Shown here in pieces: positions 18,637 through 47,033 of a stretch of DNA of 64,000 nt. Below the pieces are notes generated by a model. The model had not been told where the DNA came from. It saw only the letters and a program-made list of their open reading frames with translations, and searched no databases. Where the stretch lies: NCBI GenBank assembly GCA_016214955.1, contig JACRMN010000012.1, positions 673,901-737,900 of the forward strand, read 5' to 3'. Positions within the stretch are counted from its first letter, which is position 1, and each line of letters opens with the position of its first letter. The position numbers were made by a program, and so were the translations under genes. Origin of the DNA: Deltaproteobacteria bacterium. GTDB lineage: Bacteria; Myxococcota; Myxococcia; Myxococcales; Anaeromyxobacteraceae.

Positions 18637-21357
18637 CTAGCGGGCCGGCTCGCCGGATGCGGGAGCCGGCGCCGGCGCCGGCGCGTCGGCCGGAGAGGCC
18701 CCCTCCGGCGCCTGCGGCGCGACCGGAGCGGGGATCTGGGGGGCGGGCGCCGGGGCCGGCATCGGGGTCCGTGCCGGATCGCGCCGCGGGATGGGGATGC
18801 CCCAGCGCGGCGTCGCCGGCGGGCTGCCGGTGGCGGGTGCCGGGGTCGGCCCGGTGGGCGGCGCGCTCGCCGGGGCGGGCGCCGGAGCCGGGGCGGCGCC
18901 GCGCCGGCCGTCGGGGCCGACGACCCCCTCGCCGGGAGCGCCGGGGCCGCCGTTCTCCAGCTTGAGGGCCTCGTTCTCCACGTCGCGGTGCATGCGGGAG
19001 TACGGGCCGGGCTTGCGCTCGTAGTCCACGTTGACGCGGTACTCGGGCTGGTCGCCGTAGAACTCGCGGATGAACTCCTGCTGCTCCTTGCGCTTTCGCT
19101 CCAGGATGCGCCGGTAGTCGGACTGGTCCCGGATGATGTAGGGCGTGAGGAAGAGGAGCAGGTTGGTCTTGGTCTTGGTGGCGGTCTGGTCGCGGAAGAG
19201 CCAGCCCAGCACCGGGATGTCGCCCAGCAGCGGGGTCTTGCGGACGCCGGTGACCACGCGGTCCTGGATGAGGCCGCCGATGACGATGGTGGACTGATCC
19301 TTGACGGTGATCTTGGTCTTCACCGAGCGCTTGGCGGTGGTGGGCCCGAGCTGCGGGTCCTTGGAGGCGATCTCCTCGGTCTGCTCGTCGAGCTGCAGGG
19401 TGACGGTGTCGCCCTCGTTGATCTGGGGCTTCACCTTGAGCCGCAGCTCCACGTTCTGCCGCTGGATGGGGGCGAAGAGGCCGGAGGTCAGGCCGCCGGA
19501 GAGCAGGCCGCTCGCCAGGCCGGCGGTGGCGGCGCTGTTCGCGCCGGTGGTGGTGGCCTGCGAGAGCAGATTCTGGATGCCAGGCTGGGCCACCGCCGCC
19601 TGGAAGGGCACGTTCTGGCCCACGGTGATCTCGGCGTCCTCGTTGTCCGAGGCCAGCAGGTGCGGGGTGGAGATGACGTTGACGTCGGAGGAGGTCTGCA
19701 GCGCCTGGAGCAGGACGGTGAAGCTGGAGACGCCCGGCAGCAGGTCCTTGAGCTCGGCCGAGGCCGGGCCGGAGAGGCCGGTGAGGAAGCCGCCCAGCGA
19801 CAGCAGGCTGGCGGGGTTGAAGGAGTTGATGCGGCCGGTCTCGGAGGCCAGGGGCAGGTAGCCCTTGCCCGAGGGGGTGTTCACCGGCACCACGCCGTGC
19901 ATCGAGACGCCGAACTGGTTCTCGTTGTTGAGGTTGACCTCGAGGATCACCGCCTCGACGAAGACCTGGCGCCGCGGCCGGTCGAGCTTGTCGATGAGCC
20001 GCTGCATGGTGGCGAAGTCGGAGCCGCTGGCCATGATGATGAGCGAGTTGGAGACCTTGTCGGCGGTGACCTTGACGTCGCCGGAGAAGAGGGCGGCGCT
20101 CGTGGCCCCGGCCGCGCCCGCCGGCTGGGCCCCCGGCTGCGGCGGGATGTTGCCGGGGACGCCGCCGGGGCGCCGCGTCGACGACTGGCCCGAGGCCAGC
20201 GACGAGAGCGTCTGGGCCAGGTCCTCGGCGTTGGCGTTCTTCATGTAGACGACGTGGATCTGTCCCTCGCCGGCGGTGGGCTGGTCGAGCTGGGCCACCA
20301 GCTCCTGGATGCGCTGGAAGCTCTTCTCGTCGGCGATGACCACCAGCTTGTTGGTGCGCTCGTCGGCCAGCACCTTGGAGATGGAGAGCTCGGTGGGGCC
20401 CTCGGCCGAGGGGGCGGGCGCCGGCTGGCCCGGGGCCCCGCCGACGCCGCCGATGATCGGCCGCCGCGCCGGCTTGCCCGGGCTGCCCGGGCTCGACTGG
20501 AAGATCTGGTTGATCTTCTCGGCCAGGTCGCGGGCCGGCGCGTGCTTCACCTGGATGAAGCGCACCAGGTCGCCGCCGCCGGGCCGGTCGATGGTCTCCA
20601 GCAGCTTCTCGATGCGGAGCAGGTTGAGGCCGATGTCGGTGATGATGAGCAGGTCGGGCGGCACCGACTGGATGTCGGCCCCCTGCGGCGAGGTGTAGTT
20701 GCCGAGCAGGCCGCGCAGCATGTCGGGGTCGGCGTGGCGCAGCCGGATGAGCCGGGTGACCGGCTGCTCCTGGGCCGGCGGCTCGCCGTCGGGGGAGATC
20801 ACCGGGATGGGCGTCTTCTTGGCGTCGGCGATGCGGGTCAGCCTCCAGTAGCGGCCCGACTGGAAGATGGCGATGTTGTTGGCGGTCAGGGCCGAGAGGA
20901 AGGCGGCGTAGGCCTCCTCGGCGGTGACCGGCGCCTTGGAGAGCAGGGTGATCTTCCCGCGGGCGATGTCCTCGGTGTAGGCGAAGTTGCGGCAGGTCCA
21001 GCGGCTGGCCTGCTCCAGCACGTCGACGATGTCGGCCTTGTTGAAGGCCAGCAGGAACTTCCCCTGCAGCGGCTGGCAGCGGCCCTCGCCGCCGGTGGGC
21101 ACCGACTCGGCGCTGGAGACGCCGGGGCGCGGGGCCGAGGGAGGGGCGCCGGGCGTGCCAGGCGGGGGCGCTCCCGGCACGCCGGCGGGAGCGGGCGCCG
21201 GGGCCACCTGGCCGGGCGGCGGCACCGCCGGGGCCACGCGCCCGGGCGAGCGCGGGCTGAGCGGCACGCTCGGAGTCCCGGGCACGGGCGACCGGGAGGG
21301 GGCCTGCGCGAGGGCCATCGCAGGGGCGAGCAGCAGGACGGCGAAGAGGAGGCGCAT
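18637..21357 (-). CDS. gspD: Type II secretion outer-membrane secretin GspD with Pro-rich ends
   Basis: A 906-aa secretin forming the outer-membrane channel. A signal peptide (cleaving after MALA, about residue 17) is followed by about 60 Pro/Gly-rich residues, the N0 domain, three N-domains, and the secretin core with VPFQAAVA, GGLIQDR and LGDIPVLGWLFR. The last 100 residues after VENEALKLENGG form a Pro/Ala tail with repeated PAPAP, where pilotin-binding tails normally sit. GspD is typically 650-750 aa, so both ends are extended. It starts 22 nt after gspC. Confidence 0.96.
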   Translation of the reverse strand: MRLLFAVLLLAPAMALAQAPSRSPVPGTPSVPLSPRSPGRVAPAVPPPGQVAPAPAPAGVPGAPPPGTPGAPPSAPRPGVSSAESVPTGGEGRCQPLQGKFLLAFNKADIVDVLEQASRWTCRNFAYTEDIARGKITLLSKAPVTAEEAYAAFLSALTANNIAIFQSGRYWRLTRIADAKKTPIPVISPDGEPPAQEQPVTRLIRLRHADPDMLRGLLGNYTSPQGADIQSVPPDLLIITDIGLNLLRIEKLLETIDRPGGGDLVRFIQVKHAPARDLAEKINQIFQSSPGSPGKPARRPIIGGVGGAPGQPAPAPSAEGPTELSISKVLADERTNKLVVIADEKSFQRIQELVAQLDQPTAGEGQIHVVYMKNANAEDLAQTLSSLASGQSSTRRPGGVPGNIPPQPGAQPAGAAGATSAALFSGDVKVTADKVSNSLIIMASGSDFATMQRLIDKLDRPRRQVFVEAVILEVNLNNENQFGVSMHGVVPVNTPSGKGYLPLASETGRINSFNPASLLSLGGFLTGLSGPASAELKDLLPGVSSFTVLLQALQTSSDVNVISTPHLLASDNEDAEITVGQNVPFQAAVAQPGIQNLLSQATTTGANSAATAGLASGLLSGGLTSGLFAPIQRQNVELRLKVKPQINEGDTVTLQLDEQTEEIASKDPQLGPTTAKRSVKTKITVKDQSTIVIGGLIQDRVVTGVRKTPLLGDIPVLGWLFRDQTATKTKTNLLLFLTPYIIRDQSDYRRILERKRKEQQEFIREFYGDQPEYRVNVDYERKPGPYSRMHRDVENEALKLENGGPGAPGEGVVGPDGRRGAAPAPAPAPASAPPTGPTPAPATGSPPATPRWGIPIPRRDPARTPMPAPAPAPQIPAPVAPQAPEGASPADAPAPAPAPASGEPAR

Positions 21358-38540: not shown

Positions 38541-38882
38541 ATGCTCAAGTCGGACCTCATCAACATTCTCGTGGTGAAGCGCGGTGTTACACAGAAGCAG
38601 GCCGAGGCCACCATCGAGAACATCTTCGAGTCGATGAAGACCGCCCTGTGCAAGGGGGAAAACATCGAGATCCGCGGGCTTGGCGCCTTCCACGTGAAGC
38701 ACTACGAGGGCTACCAGGGGCGGAATCCCAAGACCGGCGAGGTCATCCCGGTGAAGCCGAAGCGCGGCATCCTGTTCCGCACCGGCAAGGAGCTGCGCGA
38801 CCGCGTGAACCGCCCCGAAGACGACCAGGGCGGCGGGTCCGGCACCGGCTCGGGCACTCCGCCTGCCGCGTCCGGCACGTAG
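38541..38882 (+). CDS. HU/IHF-family DNA-binding protein
   Basis: A 113-aa nucleoid protein. Residues 1-95 form the usual HU/IHF fold: MLKSDLINILVVKRGVTQKQA, a GENIEIRGLGAFHVK strand pair and the beta arm with GRNPKTGEVIPVKPKRGILF, where Pro after Asn inserts into the DNA minor groove. The RNPKTGE and VKPKR pattern is closer to IHF than to HU. A Gly/Ser/Thr tail of about 18 residues follows. It has its own promoter and a GGAG ribosome binding site 10 nt before the ATG. Confidence 0.94.
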   Translation: MLKSDLINILVVKRGVTQKQAEATIENIFESMKTALCKGENIEIRGLGAFHVKHYEGYQGRNPKTGEVIPVKPKRGILFRTGKELRDRVNRPEDDQGGGSGTGSGTPPAASGT

Positions 38883-39030: not shown

Positions 39031-41037
39031 TCAGGCGGCGAGCCCGATGCGCGCGCGGGGGACCACGGGCCAGTCGGCCGGCAGCTCGCCATAGGCCAGC
39101 ACCGGCAGGCGCGGCAGCCGAGGGGCCACGAGCTCGCGGACGGCGCGGCGAACGTCGGGGACGGTGAGCAGCGCGGGCGGCCGCTCGGCGGCGGCCACCT
39201 CGCCGGCGAGTCGCTCCACCAGGTCGCGGACCGCGGCCGGATCGAGGGGCGGCCCCCCGGGCGCGAGCGAGCCGCGGACCAGGGCCTCGGCCTCGGGGTC
39301 GAGCAGCAGCACCTCGAGGGGCCCGCCGGCCGAGAGCCGGTGAGCGATCTGCCGACCCACGGCGCGGCGGCAGCTCTCGGCGAGTGCCGCGGCCGGCCGG
39401 GCTGCGCCCCCGGCCTCGAGCATCGCCTGCACCACGGCGCGGAGCGCGCGAACCGGGACGCCCTCCTCGAGCAGGCGGCGCACCACCTCGGCGAGCAGCG
39501 CGGGCGGAAGCTGCCGGGCCGCCTCGCGGGCCAGCGCCGGGGCCTGCCCCTCCAGCGCGCCGAGGAGCGCCTGGGCCTCCTCCACGCCCACCAGCAGGTG
39601 AGCCGAGCGGCAGAGGCCGGCGGCGGCGCCGGCCAGCACCCGCTCCAGCGGTCCGAGCACCGGACCCAGCGCCTCGGCCCGCGCGGACAGCGTGGCGTCG
39701 ATGACCGCGGCCCGGCTCCCGGTGACCGGGTGGGCCGAGGGCAGCGCCTCGATGCCGGCGAGCCGGAGCTCCTCCTCGCCGGCGAGCACCAGGGCGCGGT
39801 CGGCCTCGGCGCGGCCGGCGGCAGCGGGGGCCTCCTCGAGGAGGAGGCGCCAGGAGCCGGGCGGGAGCGGCGCTTCGCGCACCGCCACCGGCGGCACCGC
39901 CACGCCCAGCTCGCGCCACAGCGCCTGGCGCAGCGCCGGGCCCGCCTCCTCGCGGAAACCGGCCGCGGCCGCCAGGCCGTGGAGGTCGGTCGCCAGCTCC
40001 AGAACCACCGGCGGCGCGGGCGGGAGGGCCTCGGGGCCCTCCTCCTCCGGAGGCAGGGCCGGCTGGTCACCGGCGGTGAATGCCCGGCGCGCCGCCAGGC
40101 CGGCCCCCGCTCCGAGGAGCAGGAAGGGGAGGGCCGGCAGACCGGGCAGCACCGCCAGCCCGCCGCAAAGGCCGGCCACCGCGGCCAGGGCCCGCGGCTC
40201 GCTCCGCACCAGGCCCACCAGGTCGCCGGCCAGCGAGCCGCCCTCCTCCTCCGGGGCGACGCGGGTCACCGCCACGCCCGCCGCCACCGCGGCCAGCAGC
40301 CCGGGCACCTGCGAGGCCAGTCCGTCGCCCACCGCCAGCAGGAGGTACCTCCGCGCCGCCACCGCCGGTTCCATGCCGCGCCACAGGCCGGAGGCGACCC
40401 CGCCGGCCAGGTTGACGAGGGCGATGGCCACGCCGGCCACCGCGTCGCCCTTCACGAACTTGAGTGCGCCGTCCATGGCCCCGTGGAGCTGGCCCTCGCG
40501 CTCCAGCGCCCGCCGGCGCCGGCGGGCCTCGGCGCCGTCGATGGCGCCGTTGCGCAGGTCGGCGTCGATGGCCATCTGCTTGCCCGGCAGCGCGTCGAGG
40601 GCGAAGCGGGCGGCCACCTCGGCCACGCGCTCGGCACCCTTGGCCACCACCAGGAGCTGCACCAGCGTCACCACCGCGAAGACCACCGCGCCGGCCACCG
40701 GGCTCCCGCGCACCAGCACCTCGCCCAGCGCCTGGACCACGCGGCCCGCCTCGCCGCGGGAGAGGACCAGGCGCGTCGAGGCCACCGAGAGGGAGAGCCG
40801 CAGCAGGGTGCCGAGCAGCAGCAGCGCCGGAAGTGCCGCCAGCCGGAGCGGGTCGCGCGCCAGCAGCGCGGTCACCAGTACGCCGGCCGAGAGCGCCATG
40901 GAGAGGGCCACCCCCAGGTCGACGAGCCAGGGCGGCGCCGGGGTCACGAGCAGGGCCACCGCGCCCAGCGCCAGGGCGGCCACCGCCAGCTCGCCGGCGC
41001 TCCGGGGGCGCGCCAGCAGCGCCAGGAGGCGGCTCAC
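39031..41037 (-). CDS. sctV: Type III export gate protein SctV (FlhA family)
   Basis: A 668-aa export gate subunit and the last gene of the T3SS-like operon. About eight TM segments occupy residues 15-315. The FHIPEP-family loop is well kept: GKQMAIDADLRNGAIDGAEARRRR followed by GAMDGALKFVKGDAVAG. The cytoplasmic ring-forming domain (about 345-668) includes the LARQL-type helix region and PVLAYGELPADWPV near the end. GTG 41037 overlaps the sctU stop as GTGA. The length is right for SctV/FlhA; sequence alone does not separate the two, the neighbours (SctJ, SctI) favour the non-flagellar type. Confidence 0.94.
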   Translation of the reverse strand: MSRLLALLARPRSAGELAVAALALGAVALLVTPAPPWLVDLGVALSMALSAGVLVTALLARDPLRLAALPALLLLGTLLRLSLSVASTRLVLSRGEAGRVVQALGEVLVRGSPVAGAVVFAVVTLVQLLVVAKGAERVAEVAARFALDALPGKQMAIDADLRNGAIDGAEARRRRRALEREGQLHGAMDGALKFVKGDAVAGVAIALVNLAGGVASGLWRGMEPAVAARRYLLLAVGDGLASQVPGLLAAVAAGVAVTRVAPEEEGGSLAGDLVGLVRSEPRALAAVAGLCGGLAVLPGLPALPFLLLGAGAGLAARRAFTAGDQPALPPEEEGPEALPPAPPVVLELATDLHGLAAAAGFREEAGPALRQALWRELGVAVPPVAVREAPLPPGSWRLLLEEAPAAAGRAEADRALVLAGEEELRLAGIEALPSAHPVTGSRAAVIDATLSARAEALGPVLGPLERVLAGAAAGLCRSAHLLVGVEEAQALLGALEGQAPALAREAARQLPPALLAEVVRRLLEEGVPVRALRAVVQAMLEAGGAARPAAALAESCRRAVGRQIAHRLSAGGPLEVLLLDPEAEALVRGSLAPGGPPLDPAAVRDLVERLAGEVAAAERPPALLTVPDVRRAVRELVAPRLPRLPVLAYGELPADWPVVPRARIGLAA

Positions 41038-42071
41038 GGCGCCCCCTCCGGCGCGCGGCGGTGGAGCTGCACCAGCACCTCGGCAGCCGCCTGGTACAGC
41101 TCCTCGGGGACGGCGTCGCCCACCTCGGCCAGCCGGTAGAGGGAGCGGGCCAGCCCGACGTTGCGGACCACCGGCACCCCCAGCCGGCGAGCCTCGGCCC
41201 GCAGCCGGGCCGCCGCCGCTCCCGCCCCCTTGGCGACCACGGTTGGCGCGGACTCGCTCCGGCCGTCGTGAGCCATGGCCACCGCCAGGTGCGTCGGGTT
41301 GACCACCAGAACGGCGGCCCGGGCGAGCGGCGGCGCCAGGGCCAGGGCGCGCTGCGCCCGGCGCCGCTCCTGGCGGAGCAGGGGCTCGCCCTCGTCGTCC
41401 CGCTGCTCCCGCATCACCTCCTGGCGCGTCATGCGGAGCCGCGCCTGCAGGCGGTGGCGCGCCAGAAGCAGGTCGGCGAGTCCGAGGAAGAGGAGGAGGC
41501 CCGCCAGCCCGAGCACCGCGGGCCAGAGGCGGAGGGACCAGGCGGACGGGAGCGCGCCGGCGGAGCCGCGCGGCAGGGAGGCCAGGGCCGGCAGGGCGCG
41601 GAGCGCGAGCCACCCGCCAGCGGCCAGCACGCCGAGCGCGCGGGCGAGGCCCAGGAGCGCCGTGCCCCAGGCCTGGGCAGAGGCCACCCTCCCCAGCCCC
41701 GCGGCGAGATCGAGCCGCTCCAGCCGGGGGGCTGCGAGGGCCGGCGCCAGGAGGAAGCGGGTCTGCAGGAGGCCCGCCAGCGCGCCGGCAGCCACGGCCG
41801 CCGCCATGGCCGGAGCTGCCGCGCGCAGCGCTGCGCCGGCGGCGCGGGTCAGGGCCGGGAGGGCGGCGGGCTCGCCGGATGCGGCCTCGGCGAGCGAGGT
41901 GCGGAGCAGCCGTGCCAGGTCCCCTGCGGTCGCGGCGCCGGTCCCGCCCAGGGCCGCGAGCCCGCCGGCCAGGGCCGCGGCCCCGGTGAGCTCGCGGCTC
42001 ACCGCCACCTCCCCGCGCCGCCGCGCCTCGCGGAGCCGGCGCGGCGTGGGCCGCTCGGTGCGGGCGCTCAC
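41034..42071 (-). CDS. sctU: Type III export switch protein SctU (FlhB family)
   Basis: A 345-aa export switch. It starts with the family lead ERPTPRRLREARRRGEVAVSREL, has four TM segments (about 25-210), and a cytoplasmic domain with the self-cleaving NPTH motif in VVNPTHLAVAM (cleavage between Asn and Pro), then KGAGAAAARLRAEARRLGVP and the Pro-Glu/Tyr end PEELYQAAAEVL. An intact NPTH implies that substrate switching, or at least maturation, is kept. GTG start overlaps the sctT stop as GTGA. Confidence 0.95.
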   Translation of the reverse strand: MSARTERPTPRRLREARRRGEVAVSRELTGAAALAGGLAALGGTGAATAGDLARLLRTSLAEAASGEPAALPALTRAAGAALRAAAPAMAAAVAAGALAGLLQTRFLLAPALAAPRLERLDLAAGLGRVASAQAWGTALLGLARALGVLAAGGWLALRALPALASLPRGSAGALPSAWSLRLWPAVLGLAGLLLFLGLADLLLARHRLQARLRMTRQEVMREQRDDEGEPLLRQERRRAQRALALAPPLARAAVLVVNPTHLAVAMAHDGRSESAPTVVAKGAGAAAARLRAEARRLGVPVVRNVGLARSLYRLAEVGDAVPEELYQAAAEVLVQLHRRAPEGAP

Positions 42072-42847
42072 GGCCCACCCCGGGCCAGCGCCGAGACGAG
42101 GCGGGCGCCCACGGCCACCTCCTCCACCAGCCGGCCGCCCAGCGCCGAGGCGGCGAGCGCCAGCGGCAGGAGGCCCAGCCCCGCGCGCCCGGGCTGGAGG
42201 GCGGCGGCAGCGCCGGAGCCCGATGCGGCCCGGGCCGCCAGGGCCAGCGCCAGGTCGGCGCAGAGCACGCCGGCCGCGGCAGGCGCGCCGAGCAGGAGGC
42301 CGGCGGAGAGGATCTCCGACGAGGCCGCGAGCCCGGCCTCCAGGATGCGCGGGCCGGAGGCGCCCGCCCCGACCGGCAGCGGGGCGAAGGTGCCGAGGAG
42401 GGCGGCGAGGAGGAGCCTGTCGGCCCCGGCGGCGGCGGCGAGCGGCAGCGCCCACTGCACCAGGAGATCCCCGCTGGCGCTCTCCCGCTGCCGGACCGGC
42501 GCGGCGTGGAGCTCGCCCAGCGTGGCGCCGCGCAGCTGGTCGGCCAGCCGCCCGCCGGTGCGGGCCGCCTCGGTGGGCAACGCCGCGCACAGGCCGAGGG
42601 CGAGGCCCAGGGCGAGCTCGCGCACCGCTGCGGCGAGCAGCACCGGGCCGGAGGGAGCACTCCAGCCGGCGGCTGAGGCCCCGGCCGCGCCCAACCCGAA
42701 GGCGAGCGCCAGCCGTGCCGGGGCGGGGACGCCCGGGCCGCCGAGGAACGGCGAGAGGAGCGCTGCGGGGAGCAGCCGGAGGCCGCCGAGGAAGGCGGCC
42801 GCGGCGAGCGGCTCGACCTGCCGCAGCAGCGCCGACGCCGGGCTCAG
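42068..42847 (-). CDS. sctT: Type III export protein SctT (FliR family), apparent CTG start
   Basis: A 259-aa inner-membrane export protein of the FliR/SctT family, mostly hydrophobic, with ELALGLALGLCAALPTEAARTGGRLADQLRG, the best-conserved FliR stretch, here near residues 75-105. No ATG or GTG lies between the end of sctS and the first conserved residues. A CTG at 42847 overlaps the sctS stop as CTGA and gives exactly the usual family length; a GTG at 42913 would overlap sctS by 70 bp. The CTG start is therefore preferred but unproven. Confidence 0.85.
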   Translation of the reverse strand: MSPASALLRQVEPLAAAAFLGGLRLLPAALLSPFLGGPGVPAPARLALAFGLGAAGASAAGWSAPSGPVLLAAAVRELALGLALGLCAALPTEAARTGGRLADQLRGATLGELHAAPVRQRESASGDLLVQWALPLAAAAGADRLLLAALLGTFAPLPVGAGASGPRILEAGLAASSEILSAGLLLGAPAAAGVLCADLALALAARAASGSGAAAALQPGRAGLGLLPLALAASALGGRLVEEVAVGARLVSALARGGP

Positions 42848-43110
42848 GGCAGCCCCCGCTGCGAGATCTCGAAGGACGCCGCCGCGAAGCGCAGCAGGCG
42901 GGCCCCGATCCACGGGGCGGTGACGAGGAGCGCCCCCAGCGCGGCCGCGGTTCGCGGCAGCACGCCGAGCGCCGGCTCCTGCACCTGAGTGGCGGCCTGG
43001 AGGACGCCGACGAGCAGCCCCACCAGCAGCGCGGCGAGGAGGGGCGGGACCGAGAGGAGGAGCGAGAGCAGGAGCGCTTCGCGGCCGAGGGCGAGGAGGG
43101 CGGCGTCCAC
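42844..43110 (-). CDS. sctS: Type III export protein SctS (FliQ family)
   Basis: An 88-aa export-gate protein with two TM helices, the usual FliQ/SctS size. The helix pair is LLLSLLLSVPPLLAALLVGL and, after the conserved LQAATQVQEPAL turn (here VGVLQAATQVQEPALGVLPR), AALGALLVTAPWIGARLL. GTG start at 43110; the stop overlaps the presumed CTG of sctT. Confidence 0.94.
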   Translation of the reverse strand: MDAALLALGREALLLSLLLSVPPLLAALLVGLLVGVLQAATQVQEPALGVLPRTAAALGALLVTAPWIGARLLRFAAASFEISQRGLP

Positions 43111-43119
43111 CGGTGCGCC

Positions 43120-43791
43120 TCAGGGCAGGTAGCCGAGGACCAGGCCGCGCGCCAGGAGGCGCCAGCCGTCCACCGCCACGAAGAGCAGCAGCTTGAAGGG
43201 GAGCGAGACGCTGGTGGGGGAGAGCTGGGTGAGGCCCAGCGCCAGGAGGACGTTGGCCACCACCAGGTCCACCACCAGGAAGGGGAGGAAGACGAGGAAG
43301 CCGATGGTGAAGGCGCGCCGGAGCTCCGAGACCACGAAGGCCGGGGCCACCACCGAGAGGTCCGCATCGCCGGCCGGGGCGGAGGGCCTGGCCCTGCGGG
43401 CCAGGTCGAGGAAGGTGGCGCGGTCGTCCGGGCGGGCGTGCCGCAGCAGGAATGCCCGGAGCGGCTCGACCGCCCGCCCGGCGGCGGCCAGGGCGGCCTC
43501 GGCGCCGCGCGGCTCCGGGGCCGCCTGCAGCGCGCGCCAGGTGTCCTCGGCCACCGGACCCATGGCCACGGCGGTGAGGAGCAGCGCCAGGCCGGTCACC
43601 GCCGTGGAGGGCGGCACCTGCGGCGCACCCAGCGCCGACCGGGCCACCGAGAGGACCACGGCCATCTTCAAGAAGGAGGTGAGGGTGACGAGGAGGAGCG
43701 GCGCCACCGCCACCGCGCCGAGGAGCAGCAGCAGCTCGGCGGGGCGATCGCTCCAGGGGCTCGCCGACGGGAGGAGGAGCGGGGAGGTCAC
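43120..43791 (-). CDS. sctR: Type III export protein SctR (FliP family)
   Basis: A 223-aa core protein of the export pore. Four TM helices, with the family signature TSFLKMAVVLSVARSALGAPQ followed by VPPSTAVTGLALLLTAVAM, and later FLVFLPFLVVDLVVANVLLALG and SLPFKLLLFVAVDGWRLLARGL. GTG 43791 overlaps the FliO-like stop as GTGA. There is a 9-nt gap to sctS. Together with SctS and SctT it would form the helical export gate. Confidence 0.95.
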   Translation of the reverse strand: MTSPLLLPSASPWSDRPAELLLLLGAVAVAPLLLVTLTSFLKMAVVLSVARSALGAPQVPPSTAVTGLALLLTAVAMGPVAEDTWRALQAAPEPRGAEAALAAAGRAVEPLRAFLLRHARPDDRATFLDLARRARPSAPAGDADLSVVAPAFVVSELRRAFTIGFLVFLPFLVVDLVVANVLLALGLTQLSPTSVSLPFKLLLFVAVDGWRLLARGLVLGYLP

Positions 43792-44117
43792 GGCCGCGTC
43801 CCCGGCGTGAGGTCCGCCACCAGCGTGGTGCCGGCGGGCGCCCAGCCGAGCAGGAGGCGGCGCCCGTCCACCTCCACGAGCGCCAGCCCGCCGCCGCGCC
43901 CCAGCGGCTCGCGCTCCAGGACCGCCAGGGCCCGGCCGGTGGCCGCCTCGGGCCGCAGGGCCCGTCCGGCCGCGGCCAGCGCCGCCAGGAGGCCGCAGGC
44001 GCGGAGCGCGGAGCCTCCCAGGCCCTCGGCCGGGACGATGAAGGCGGCAGCGCAGAGGAGCGCAGCCGCGGCCAGCAGCCGGTTGCGCCGCCCCGCCAGC
44101 CAGGCGGGCGCGGTCAC
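43788..44117 (-). CDS. FliO-like membrane protein in the T3SS operon
   Basis: A 109-aa protein with one or two N-terminal hydrophobic helices (about residues 13-30 and 37-52) and a small C-terminal beta domain, LEREPLGRGGGLALVEVDGRRLLLGWAPAG split across about 66-96. That pattern, a membrane anchor plus a V-E-V-x-G-R-x-L-L-L-G strand pair, is what FliO shows in flagellar operons, where FliO sits directly before FliP. Here it sits directly before sctR. FliO helps FliP assembly and is generally missing from injectisome clusters. The call is by topology, motif and position. Confidence 0.65.
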   Translation of the reverse strand: MTAPAWLAGRRNRLLAAAALLCAAAFIVPAEGLGGSALRACGLLAALAAAGRALRPEAATGRALAVLEREPLGRGGGLALVEVDGRRLLLGWAPAGTTLVADLTPGTRP

Positions 44118-45112
44118 GGCTGCCCCTCCAGCGCCTCGATGCGGACGCCCAGCGCTCCCTCGATGTCCACGAGCTGGCCGCGGGCCACCGGCCGCCCGTC
44201 GAGCCGGAGCACCACGCTGCCGTCCCGCGGTGCCGGCAGGGGCAGGGCGCTCCCGGGCTCGAGCCGCCAGAGCTCGCCCAGCGTGAGCGAGAGCCGGGCG
44301 ACCTCCACGGCGAGGGTGACAGGCAACGAGGCGGCTGAGCGTTCCATGGCGAGGTCCTCCACGACGAAGTGGCCTTCCTCCTCGCGGCCCGGGAGGGCGA
44401 AGCCGGGGAAGGCCAGGGTGGTGCGCGGGCCCGGGGGCTCGTCGAGGAGCACGACGTCGCCGGGGGCGAGGGTGGCCAGGTCATCGACGGGCAGCGCGGC
44501 CGACCCGCTCTCCAGCCAGCCGTCGAGCAGCCAGCCCTCGGCCGGGGCCGGCGGGGGCGCGGGGGCCGCGAGGCGGCGGAGAACCGGGGCAGCGAGCAGC
44601 AGCCGGGCGCGTCCGCGCAGCCCCGCGGCCGAGAGGGCCAGGTCGACGGCGAGCGGCTCCTCGAGCGGCTCCTCGTCGCCCCGGAGGCGCGGCGCCAGCG
44701 CAGCGACCGCCGGGACCTCGGCAGCGCCGTCGATGGCGACGAGCGCGAGCAGCTCGACGGCGGCCCACTCCAGCGGGGTGAGGTCGAGCGCGGGAGGGAG
44801 CTGGCCGTCGCCGCCGGCGACCCTGTCCACGAGCCGGACGGCGAAGGCGGCGTCGACCTCCAGCGAGAGGCGCGCCGGCAAGGCCTCCAGCTCCAGCGGG
44901 AGCCGGACCAGGCCCGCGGGCGCGGACCCGGCGGCCGGGAGGGGCCGCCCCTCGACGGTCACGGCCTCGCCCAGGAGCCGGGAGAGCGCGCCGGCGGCGC
45001 CGGCGGCCGCCTCGCGCCCCAGCAGGCGGGCGGCCGGGGAGAGGGTGGCGAAGCCGCTCGCGATCCGGGGAAGCGGGAAGGGGAAGGCGCTCACGCAGGC
45101 CGGACACTTCAC
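44114..45112 (-). CDS. sctQ: Type III cytoplasmic ring protein SctQ (FliM/FliN family)
   Basis: A 332-aa sorting-platform protein. The middle region (about residues 200-265, GWLLDGWLESGSAALPVDDL) looks like a first SpoA domain and the C-terminus (about 268-332, LPVTLAVEVARLSLTLGELW, then RGQLVDIEGALGVRIEAL) is a clear second SpoA domain. The N-terminus starts with KCPACVSAF, whose two cysteines are unusual. GTG 45112 is chosen because it overlaps the upstream stop as GTGA; a start at 45151 would overlap by 43 bp. Confidence 0.87.
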   Translation of the reverse strand: MKCPACVSAFPFPLPRIASGFATLSPAARLLGREAAAGAAGALSRLLGEAVTVEGRPLPAAGSAPAGLVRLPLELEALPARLSLEVDAAFAVRLVDRVAGGDGQLPPALDLTPLEWAAVELLALVAIDGAAEVPAVAALAPRLRGDEEPLEEPLAVDLALSAAGLRGRARLLLAAPVLRRLAAPAPPPAPAEGWLLDGWLESGSAALPVDDLATLAPGDVVLLDEPPGPRTTLAFPGFALPGREEEGHFVVEDLAMERSAASLPVTLAVEVARLSLTLGELWRLEPGSALPLPAPRDGSVVLRLDGRPVARGQLVDIEGALGVRIEALEGQP

Positions 45113-45546
45113 CGATCGTGCCGCCGGGAGGGCTCCTGGCCTCGCGGACATGCGCGCGGCGCGCCGTCCGCGGCGCGGGCCCGCGTCCGCTCCGCGGGCG
45201 TCAGGTGGCGGGGCGCGTCGGTGGCGAGCCGCTCGCGAAGGAGGCGGAGGAGGAAGGGAGCGACGTCCGGCGGTGGCGCTGCGCCGTCCGCCAGCCGCTG
45301 GATGAGCGCCGCCAGCCGCGCCCGCTCCTGGGCCGCGGCGTCGGCGGCGCGCCGGCGCTGGTCGGGCCAGGGCGGAGTGCTGGCGTGGCTCAGGCGGCGG
45401 AGCAGTGCCACCCGCCCCTCGGACCGAAGGGCGGCGCCGTCGTCCGGCCCCGCGGGGCCGGGCGGTCCCAGGGCCAGGAGCCGCTCCGCCGCCGCCGGCA
45501 GGAGCAGCGTGGCCAGGAGCGGGAGGAGCTCCGCGTCGCGGATCAC
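45109..45546 (-). CDS. Unknown 145-aa protein between sctJ and sctQ
   Basis: I do not recognise this protein. It is helical and rich in Leu, Ala and Arg, without TM segment or signal: RDAELLPLLATLLLPAAAERL at the start, a RRRAADAAAQERARLAALIQRL helix in the middle, and a basic tail (DGAPRACPRGQEPSRRHDR). It overlaps sctJ and sctQ by 4 bases on each side, so it is clearly part of the operon. In the Yersinia-type order this place belongs to SctK and SctL, so a diverged platform or stator protein is a reasonable guess only. Confidence 0.7.
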   Translation of the reverse strand: MIRDAELLPLLATLLLPAAAERLLALGPPGPAGPDDGAALRSEGRVALLRRLSHASTPPWPDQRRRAADAAAQERARLAALIQRLADGAAPPPDVAPFLLRLLRERLATDAPRHLTPAERTRARAADGAPRACPRGQEPSRRHDR

Positions 45547-46283
45547 GGTGCGCGGCGCACGAGCATGCGCGGCAGGCGCCAGCCGAGCCGGCGGGCCGCG
45601 GCCGCGAGGAGCGCCAGGCCCAGGGTGGCCGCGACGGCGGAGGAGGCCAGCGCGGCGGTGCTCCTGGCGGGGGGCGGCGCAGGTGGGGCCGGCGGCGCGG
45701 ACTCGGCGATCACCACCGCCACCTGGCCGGGCTCGAGCCCGGGGACGGCGCCCGCCACCAGCGCCTGCAGGCCGGCCACGAGCGGCTCCACCCGGGCGCG
45801 GTGCCCGGCCCGGACCCGCGCCAGCAGCGCGGCCCGCGCCGCTGGCGCCGCGCCCGTGCGCAGCGGGTCCTCGGGCGCGGGGGCGAGGTGCACCCGCGCC
45901 TCCACCACGCCGTCGACCGCCTCGACCGAGCGCGCCAGCTCGCCCGACAGGGCGTGGAGGATCCGGGCCCGCTCCTCGGCCGGCGTGGGCACGAGCCCTC
46001 CCTGCCCCAGCACCGCGGCGAAGCCAGTGGCCTCCTGGCGCGGCAGGGCGCGCTCGGCCAGCAGCCGCCGCGCCGCGGCCGTGGCGCCGGCAGGGACCTC
46101 GACCCGCCACGCGCCCTCGCTCGCCTCGTCGCGGCGCACGGCGGCCCGGATGCCCGCCTCGTCGAGGGCCACCGCCACCTGGTTGGCCTGCCGCTCGGCG
46201 AGGCCGTGGGCCACAGGCTCTCCGCCGCAGCCGCCGGCGAGGAGGAAGGCGAGGGCCGCCGGGCGGGGGAGCAGGGCGCGCAC
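45543..46283 (-). CDS. sctJ: Type III inner-ring lipoprotein SctJ (YscJ/PrgK family)
   Basis: A 246-aa ring lipoprotein. Signal with lipobox LAGGC (Cys near residue 19), then two small ring-building domains: LAERQANQVAVALDEAGIRAA is the first, and HALSGELARSVEAVDGVVEARVHLA the second, the latter being the motif shared by SctJ and FliF. A Pro/Ala stretch and one C-terminal TM helix (about residues 208-228) with a basic tail follow. Lipobox plus single C-terminal TM distinguishes SctJ from FliF. GTG start; overlaps the next gene by 4 bases. Confidence 0.9.
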   Translation of the reverse strand: MRALLPRPAALAFLLAGGCGGEPVAHGLAERQANQVAVALDEAGIRAAVRRDEASEGAWRVEVPAGATAAARRLLAERALPRQEATGFAAVLGQGGLVPTPAEERARILHALSGELARSVEAVDGVVEARVHLAPAPEDPLRTGAAPAARAALLARVRAGHRARVEPLVAGLQALVAGAVPGLEPGQVAVVIAESAPPAPPAPPPARSTAALASSAVAATLGLALLAAAARRLGWRLPRMLVRRAP

Positions 46284-46286
46284 CGA

Positions 46287-46622
46287 TCACACCTGGGTGT
46301 TCACGGCCTGCCGCACCGACTGGGCACCCTGCTCCACCAGCCGGGAGGCGAGCTCGAGCGTCTGGCCGGCCCGGTAGGCGTCGCCCTGCAGGGAGAGCAG
46401 CTCGCCGGCCGTGAAGCTCCGGCCGCGGCGCGCCTCGGCCAGGGCGGCGTCGAGCCGCGCCCGCGCCTGCTCCACCTTCTCGAGCAGGCGGACTCCTGCG
46501 GGGCGGACCTCCGGCGCTGCCGGGAGCCGCACCCGCAGGAGCTCGCCGAAGGAGGCCCGGGACGGGGAGACGGCGCCGGGCGGCGCCACGGGCGCGGCAG
46601 CGCCCACCGGGAGGACGGTCAC
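46287..46622 (-). CDS. sctI: Inner rod protein SctI-like
   Basis: A 111-aa small protein. A variable Pro/Ala start precedes a helical C-terminal half with FTAGELLSLQGDAYRAGQTLEL then ASRLVEQGAQSVRQAVNTQV. This has the layout of SctI/YscI proteins, where LLxLQ, a short turn and ELASKVxxQ..QAVNTL close the chain. It is encoded directly before sctJ, the position of the rod gene in Yersinia-type clusters. It has a GGAG about 7 nt before the GTG start. The call is by motif and synteny; the family is small and poorly conserved. Confidence 0.72.
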   Translation of the reverse strand: MTVLPVGAAAPVAPPGAVSPSRASFGELLRVRLPAAPEVRPAGVRLLEKVEQARARLDAALAEARRGRSFTAGELLSLQGDAYRAGQTLELASRLVEQGAQSVRQAVNTQV

Positions 46623-46634
46623 GGGGCGCTCCGC

Positions 46635-47033
46635 CTAGTGGATGTTGCCGATGGCCGCCTTGGCCGCGTCGTGCTTCACCTTCATCACGTTGGAGAGCGC
46701 CTGGAACTCCCGGCTCTCGCGCTGCATGTTCTCCTGCAGCTCCAGGTACTGGAGGTTGAAGCTCTGCGACTGCAGCTGCAGGGCCCGGCTGGCTTCCAGG
46801 AGGTCCTGGCCGCCGCCAGGCGCCGGCACCGGCGCGGTGGCGCCGGCCACCGCCCCGCGAACGGCGCCGGCCAGCACCGGCCCCCCGGGCAGGTGAGGGG
46901 CGGCGAAGGCCACGGTGGCGGCGAAGCCCTGGGCGGCGCCGCGCGAGGCGGCCTGGAGCACGGTGTCGAAGCGCGAGGGCTCGGCGGTGCGGTGGGCGGT
47001 GGGGGCGACGGAGACGGGGGTGAGGGTGCTCAT
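46635..47033 (-). CDS. Needle-like or filament protein, first gene of the T3SS operon
   Basis: A 132-aa protein with a low-complexity Ala/Gly/Pro start and a C-terminal amphipathic helical hairpin (about residues 80-132): LQLQSQSFNLQYLELQENMQ then FQALSNVMKVKHDAAKAAIGNI. The end matches the spacing of needle subunits (SNxxK, KD, AAIxN), and the gene precedes sctI and sctJ as yscF precedes yscI and yscJ. Needle proteins are usually about 80 aa, so the first 75 residues are extra. It is the only ATG-started gene of the operon, with a strong AAAGGAG 5 nt upstream, and should be the best-translated. Confidence 0.6.
   Translation of the reverse strand: MSTLTPVSVAPTAHRTAEPSRFDTVLQAASRGAAQGFAATVAFAAPHLPGGPVLAGAVRGAVAGATAPVPAPGGGQDLLEASRALQLQSQSFNLQYLELQENMQRESREFQALSNVMKVKHDAAKAAIGNIH

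Follow-up and report, generated by a model that had tools for sequence, protein, structure and literature searches.

A type III export operon without its own secretin in an Anaeromyxobacteraceae genome is headed by a gene with a needle-family C-terminus

The 64,000-nucleotide stretch analyzed here (the window) derives from a Deltaproteobacteria bacterium of the Anaeromyxobacteraceae (contig JACRMN010000012.1, positions 673,901 to 737,900) and includes, on the minus strand between positions 39031 and 47033, an operon of 11 open reading frames (ORFs) for a type III secretion system (T3SS). The frames are intact and many overlap by a few bases. In the 5′ to 3′ direction the gene order is g1-SctI-SctJ-g4-SctQ-FliO-SctR-S-T-U-V (Table 1). 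An earlier, sequence-only reading had described a compact 11-gene export operon mixing flagellar and injectisome parts, and this description was confirmed: all 11 ORFs were found, and FliO occurs together with SctI/SctJ and an injectisome-type SctV. When Pfam and NCBIfam models were compared, the injectisome models outscored the flagellar ones for SctV, T, U, R, J and Q, while the scores for SctS were about equal. For SctV, the injectisome model listed in Table 1 ranked ahead of the FlhA model (6e-132). SctJ has the sequence LAGGC close to its N-terminus and a single transmembrane segment, which is C-terminal. The SctI of the window searched singly matched no Pfam or NCBIfam model, and its identity comes from the family level. 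An alternative start for sctQ is the ATG at 45151. As the sequence-only reading also held, none of the genes of the operon encodes the ATPase SctN, the stator SctL, the secretin SctC or SctD.

Table 1. Genes of the export operon and its convergent neighbor, in window positions.
Feature	Coordinates	Strand	Description
g1	46635..47033	-	132 amino acids, first gene; N-terminal part variable, Gly/Ala-rich; C-terminal helix (~82-132) conserved, SctF needle/axial family
sctI	46287..46622	-	inner rod protein; PF17001 T3SS_basalb_I matched by 14/15 orthologues
sctJ	45543..46283	-	inner ring lipoprotein; PF01514 (YscJ_FliF) 2e-23, TIGR02544 1e-33
g4	45109..45546	-	145 amino acids, SctK/FliG position; weakly FliG-N-like
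sctQ	44114..45112	-	C-ring protein; PF01052 8e-21, TIGR02551 3e-27
fliO-like	43788..44117	-	PF04347 6e-7 (over cut-off); TIGR03500 9e-8
sctR	43120..43797	-	PF00813 8e-62
sctS	42844..43110	-	PF01313 7e-22
sctT	42068..42847	-	PF01311 3e-24; TIGR01401 1e-18
sctU	41034..42071	-	PF01312 2e-78; NPTH autocleavage motif in translation
sctV	39031..41037	-	export gate; TIGR01399 2e-153; placed in SctV tree
HU/IHF-like	38541..38882	+	convergent with sctV; neighbor, not known as machine part

Comparison of sequence profiles places the conserved ~50 residues at the C-terminus of g1 in the SctF needle (axial) family, an assignment that is well supported. The C-terminal half of the Pfam needle profile PF09392 touches orthologues of g1 across many genomes. 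The profile also exceeds its cut-off in two genomes (G085 and G139), on proteins whose C-terminus is needle-like, and it picks out tandem ORFs of 72-90 amino acids close to the long locus of relatives; in the window genome nothing matches it at E<=1. A profile named A1 consisted of 11 aligned needle-like myxobacterial proteins, none of them from the family of the window genome. Nine of the 11 match T3SS_needle_F (best 3e-8), and the top matches of A1 in the PDB are T3SS needles, an EscF-type subunit (E 4e-6) followed by PrgI and MxiH. In a control search of 17,340 ORFs, A1 recovered the undoubted SctF (Pfam 1e-18) of a canonical injectisome from Lampropedia, and its matches were of the T3SS axial type only. 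The g1 of the window was matched by A1 at E 2.4e-7, and the hhalign comparison of the g1 family with A1 gave 98% (score 69) across the C-terminal 40-50 residues. In the corresponding controls SctI reached 5%, and SctJ, Q, L, N, O, R, S, U, HU, the reversed alignment and 60 column shuffles all stayed below 4%. Within the g1 family, T3SS_needle_F, HrpA_pilin, HrpF and SrfA were matched more often than any other Pfam family, by five members each. The most conserved part of g1 is the helix common to needles, and the motif is in register to the C-terminus. The label "needle-like" that gene 1 had received from sequence alone is supported by profile comparison, although g1 searched singly has no match.

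The distribution of needle-like proteins was followed with A1. Matches were present in 24/24 genomes of the family of the window, mostly exactly two per genome, and in 122/145 genomes of the order at E<=1e-4. There was no match in families f2-f5, which lack a non-flagellar T3SS (NF-T3SS), although some of their genomes have a FliI/SctN-type ATPase. The distribution of A1 matches tracks that of NF-T3SSs. In the window genome the two matches are g1 and a protein of 297 amino acids on contig C19, which has a hydrophobic middle and a needle-like C-terminus and is followed by a tetratricopeptide repeat (TPR) protein (L134:9298-10782, a two-gene unit; G000:C19). The pair was found far from the T3SS operon in all 10 genomes of the family that were examined. 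Injectisome chaperones of needle and translocator proteins have a similar gene arrangement. Separately, the canonical injectisome locus of Lampropedia aestuarii (L154:1335-2863) has two paralogues of ~240-260 amino acids with a needle-like C-terminus, one of them matching PF09392 at E 6e-6, so long axial proteins of this kind are not solely myxobacterial.

The operon is conserved in relatives. The order g1-I-J-g4-Q-O-R-S-T-U-V, with the convergent HU gene next wherever the contig extends that far, was found in operons of families f1, f6 and f7; single-sequence searches are too weak for the divergent g4 and fliO in most relatives, and for g4 the frames at that position were read instead. All short operons examined begin with g1, which adjoins the rod gene and is conserved in 122/145 genomes of the order. 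Large f6 genomes have an additional, long T3SS locus with SctLN within it, and a g1 orthologue is also the first gene of that operon. Complete f6 genomes (e.g., G042, G058, G068, G074, G101 and G118) have two copies of g1, one in each operon. Since the same genomes (e.g., G042 and G058) have two operons but a single SctN match at E<=1e-80, one ATPase may be shared in trans by both export gates. Two further features of the short operons were seen. The HU/IHF-like gene converging on sctV is kept across families (window 38541-38882; L040-L047, L050, L052, L055), and in one genome, G022 (L042:7365-8108), an ORF of 248 amino acids lies between g4 and sctQ that is absent from the other operons seen.

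The long locus of relatives also bears on g4, which the sequence-only reading had left as unknown and which is now assigned, with low confidence, as FliG/SctK-like. The top Pfam match of a g4 orthologue is FliG_N (E 0.002). The long-locus protein in the position of g4 resembles FliG: hhalign gave 94% across the middle and C-terminal domains of FliG, with controls <1%. The N-terminal part of this protein is where the g4 family aligns, at 82% (63% for the f6/f7 subset). The link runs through this intermediate and the weak Pfam match because direct profile comparison of g4 with FliG was negative (0.2-0.6%). The long locus also encodes a FliK-like (ruler) protein (Flg_hook 7e-7) and an SctD of the FHA/YscD type. 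Given these FliG-like, FliK-like and SctD assignments, its arrangement parallels fliF-G-H-I-J-K-M/N-O-P-Q-R-flhB-flhA. At the long loci of Myxococcaceae-like genomes there are tandem, near-identical needle-like genes for products of 72-90 amino acids, with 7 copies in G042, 6 in G043 and 3 in G058, and these arrays recall multi-copy flagellin. In the long-locus regions L051 (G042:C1:9324500-9343999) and L053 (G058), a second SctU C-terminal domain is encoded by its own gene directly 3′ of sctU (L051:5489-5779, L053:4530-4877), and the motif of the long-locus SctU is NPDH, not NPTH.

The remaining components were sought across the genome, a Myxococcota draft of 5.3 Mb in 30 contigs. Its combination of a flagellum with a short locus only points to the Anaeromyxobacteraceae (compare PMC2330069). 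Among six ATP-synt_ab matches, one is a FliI on contig C3 and another an SctN on contig C17. The FliI gene sits in a flagellar operon with FliF, FliG, FliH-like and FliK-like genes. The SctN gene belongs to an sctL-sctN-sctO cluster located directly 3′ of a sigma-factor gene and near rpoC, and NCBIfam ranks the C17 ATPase as SctN, and its neighbor as SctL, first. The two loci are separate, and the sctL-sctN-sctO cluster is on a different contig from the export operon. The suggestion that the machine uses parts encoded elsewhere was borne out for SctL, SctN and SctO. No secretin SctC of its own was found genome-wide; the only two secretins, named from their sequences, are PilQ (with an AMIN-type N-terminus) and a GspD of a type II secretion system (followed by GspE), the latter at 19129-19704 of the window. 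For SctD, TIGR02500 gave only weak matches genome-wide, none over the cut-off. A partner secretin of the Tad/Kil type is likewise missing, as the genome has no third secretin, and a Kil-type partnership as in Myxococcus xanthus is therefore unlikely for the window system. The machine is split over loci, with its ATPase in trans and without its own secretin. The same separation occurs in family f1, where the sigma-sctL-sctN cluster stands alone in all 4 relatives examined. SctN is retained in relatives that have just one FliI/SctN-type match. The reading of the operon as a flagellar accessory was rejected, since the frames are intact, the order is conserved, and relatives without a second FliI-type match still keep both the operon and SctN.

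A tree of SctV and FlhA proteins (62 rows, with support from the Shimodaira-Hasegawa-like approximate likelihood ratio test, SH-aLRT) grouped the window SctV with a clade of myxobacterial short-locus SctV proteins (10 rows, SH-aLRT 100). Both the FlhA clade (27 rows, 100) and the injectisome clade (21 rows, 99) exclude it. A tree joining the short and long myxobacterial SctV proteins was not rejected and scored better than the free quick tree. The SctV tree agrees with Abby and Rocha 2012 (PMC3459982). It also agrees with the prior description of the system as an early-branching, non-flagellar, secretin-less myxobacterial T3SS, and SctV, the protein placed in the tree, does not lie inside an ordinary secretin-bearing clade.

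We hypothesize that the operon encodes the core of a split T3SS of pre-secretin type whose exported substrates are axial proteins of the needle family, with SctLNO supplied in trans and g1 as a substrate of the SctF family, and we regard this explanation as fairly probable. Energy for the SctJ ring and the SctRST-U-V gate would come from the trans-encoded SctLNO together with the proton motive force, and g1, perhaps together with the C19 protein, would be exported through SctRST. The needle-family helix of g1 could pack onto SctI and polymerize as a short needle or rod. Without a secretin of its own, such a structure would stop at the outer membrane or before it, in the periplasm, or would borrow PilQ or GspD.

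Several observations count against this hypothesis. A needle would have no known outer-membrane port, as neither the secretin nor SctD was found genome-wide. The g1 of the window has no Pfam match, and searches with the single g1 sequence, the full-length g1 profile and the g1 C-terminal profile found no needle in the PDB; because these direct searches were negative, the link between g1 and needles depends on the intermediate profile A1. Among the subunits, structure prediction with AlphaFold2 was run on g1 and g4. The g1 model consists of one long helix at residues 74-131, mostly with a predicted local distance difference test score above 85, and an N-terminal part of low confidence; it shows no canonical helical hairpin, and Foldseek found nothing with it. 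The fold search with g4 returned nothing informative. With a single confident helix, g1 differs from the hairpin of a textbook needle subunit. What the window system has of SctF is the C-terminal half of the domain, carried by g1, and the N-terminal helix hairpin is not predicted.

A machine that exports across the inner membrane only, as the sequence-only reading had considered, would deliver its substrates, g1 included, to the periplasm without any needle, and g1 would be a substrate resembling a translocator or effector, with a helix that serves only in docking or secretion. This is the published view of the myxobacterial systems (PMC3459982, PMC10433427). A genome without its own secretin and SctD is consistent with it, as is the hydrophobic, Gly/Ala-rich N-terminal part of g1, which is unlike that of a needle subunit. 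However, g1 comes first and beside the rod gene throughout the short operons examined, its best-conserved part is the helix that needles have in common, and related systems have needle-sized tandem copies and a FliK-like ruler. The absence of an own secretin, on which that suggestion drew, extends to the whole genome; nonetheless, a plain inner-membrane exporter is disfavored because a needle-family protein heads the operon, and we consider it unlikely. Another possibility, a needle-family structure that passes the outer membrane by way of a secretin borrowed from another system, is improbable. PilQ and GspD are the sole secretins of the genome and GspD is encoded within the same window, but no SctD-like bridge was found, and their presence is the only link to either of them. 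Convergence of coiled-coil helices, with g1 an unrelated operon protein, appears even more doubtful: the similar region is short and helical, and the g1 profile is negative against the PDB, yet the SctL and SctO families and the reversed and shuffled alignments reach <=4% against the 98% of g1, the motif holds its register to the C-terminus, and the distribution follows that of the T3SS. A decayed remnant of an injectisome or flagellum, which the missing secretin and SctD and the splitting of the genes over loci might suggest, was rejected as highly improbable, since the frames are intact, the order is conserved over f1, f6 and f7, SctN is kept in relatives with one FliI/SctN-type match, and close relatives did not show frequent frameshifts or gene losses.

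The myxobacterial T3SSs are a reference point for how injectisomes arose from flagella, and the long system has a role in bacterial predation; in the literatures on both subjects, these T3SSs are described as having neither needle nor secretin. Needle-family subunits in essentially all of these genomes would shift the order of events, placing the needle before the secretin, and would make the delivery of substrates by the "needleless" T3SS* a testable question. A broader proposal, put forward tentatively and with less than even confidence, is that myxobacterial T3SSs without a secretin, the one used in predation among them, are not needleless but export and polymerize cryptic subunits of the SctF family, which would be g1 and the chaperone-paired protein for the short system and the tandem copies of 72-90 amino acids for the long one. 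Under this proposal, they would represent a surviving intermediate between flagellum and injectisome in which the needle came before the secretin.

The window system is the known "Myxo short" NF-T3SS, a short locus described in all sequenced Cystobacterineae, Anaeromyxobacter included, by Abby and Rocha 2012 (PMC3459982), who argued for an intermediate between flagellum and injectisome. Neither the system nor its FliO is new, the latter having been reported in 2025 for both M. xanthus systems (PMC12403147). What is new is the SctF-family domain in g1, at the head of a system described without SctF: the Myxo systems are stated to lack it (PMC3459982) and the long one is termed needleless (PMC12075869, PMC10433427). 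The window system shares with Myxo short the taxon group, the core SctIJQRSTUV with its ATPase, the lack of secretin and SctD, the conserved order and the early-branching SctV. It also shows no SctF by the standard PF09392 profile, while sensitive profile comparison does detect one. Unlike the published system, it has a cryptic SctF-family domain at the head of the operon and another elsewhere, paired with a putative TPR chaperone, its gene between sctJ and sctQ is assigned as FliG-N/SctK-like, and the SctLNO of its family forms a separate sigma-linked module.

With the T3SS* of M. xanthus (long locus, mxan_2434-2464) the window system has in common the absence of a secretin, FliO and a g1 orthologue first in the operon. 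It differs in having no SctD, ATPase (SctLN), second SctU C-terminal gene or FliK-like ruler in the cluster, and the genome has no Tad/Kil secretin. Like the flagellar T3SS, it has FliO and a weakly FliG-N-like g4, and its order J-(G)-Q-O-R-S-T-U-V parallels fliF-G-M/N-O-P-Q-R-flhB-flhA. However, SctJ is not a full-length FliF, SctI is present, the export gate is not of the FlhA type, the operon is without hook and filament genes, and a flagellar operon is found elsewhere in the genome. In comparison with canonical injectisomes (Ysc, Inv-Mxi-Spa, Hrp), the window system lacks SctC and SctD, has FliO and has an SctV outside the injectisome clade, but it shares with them SctIJQRSTUV, SctLNO and the C-terminal helix of the needle family.

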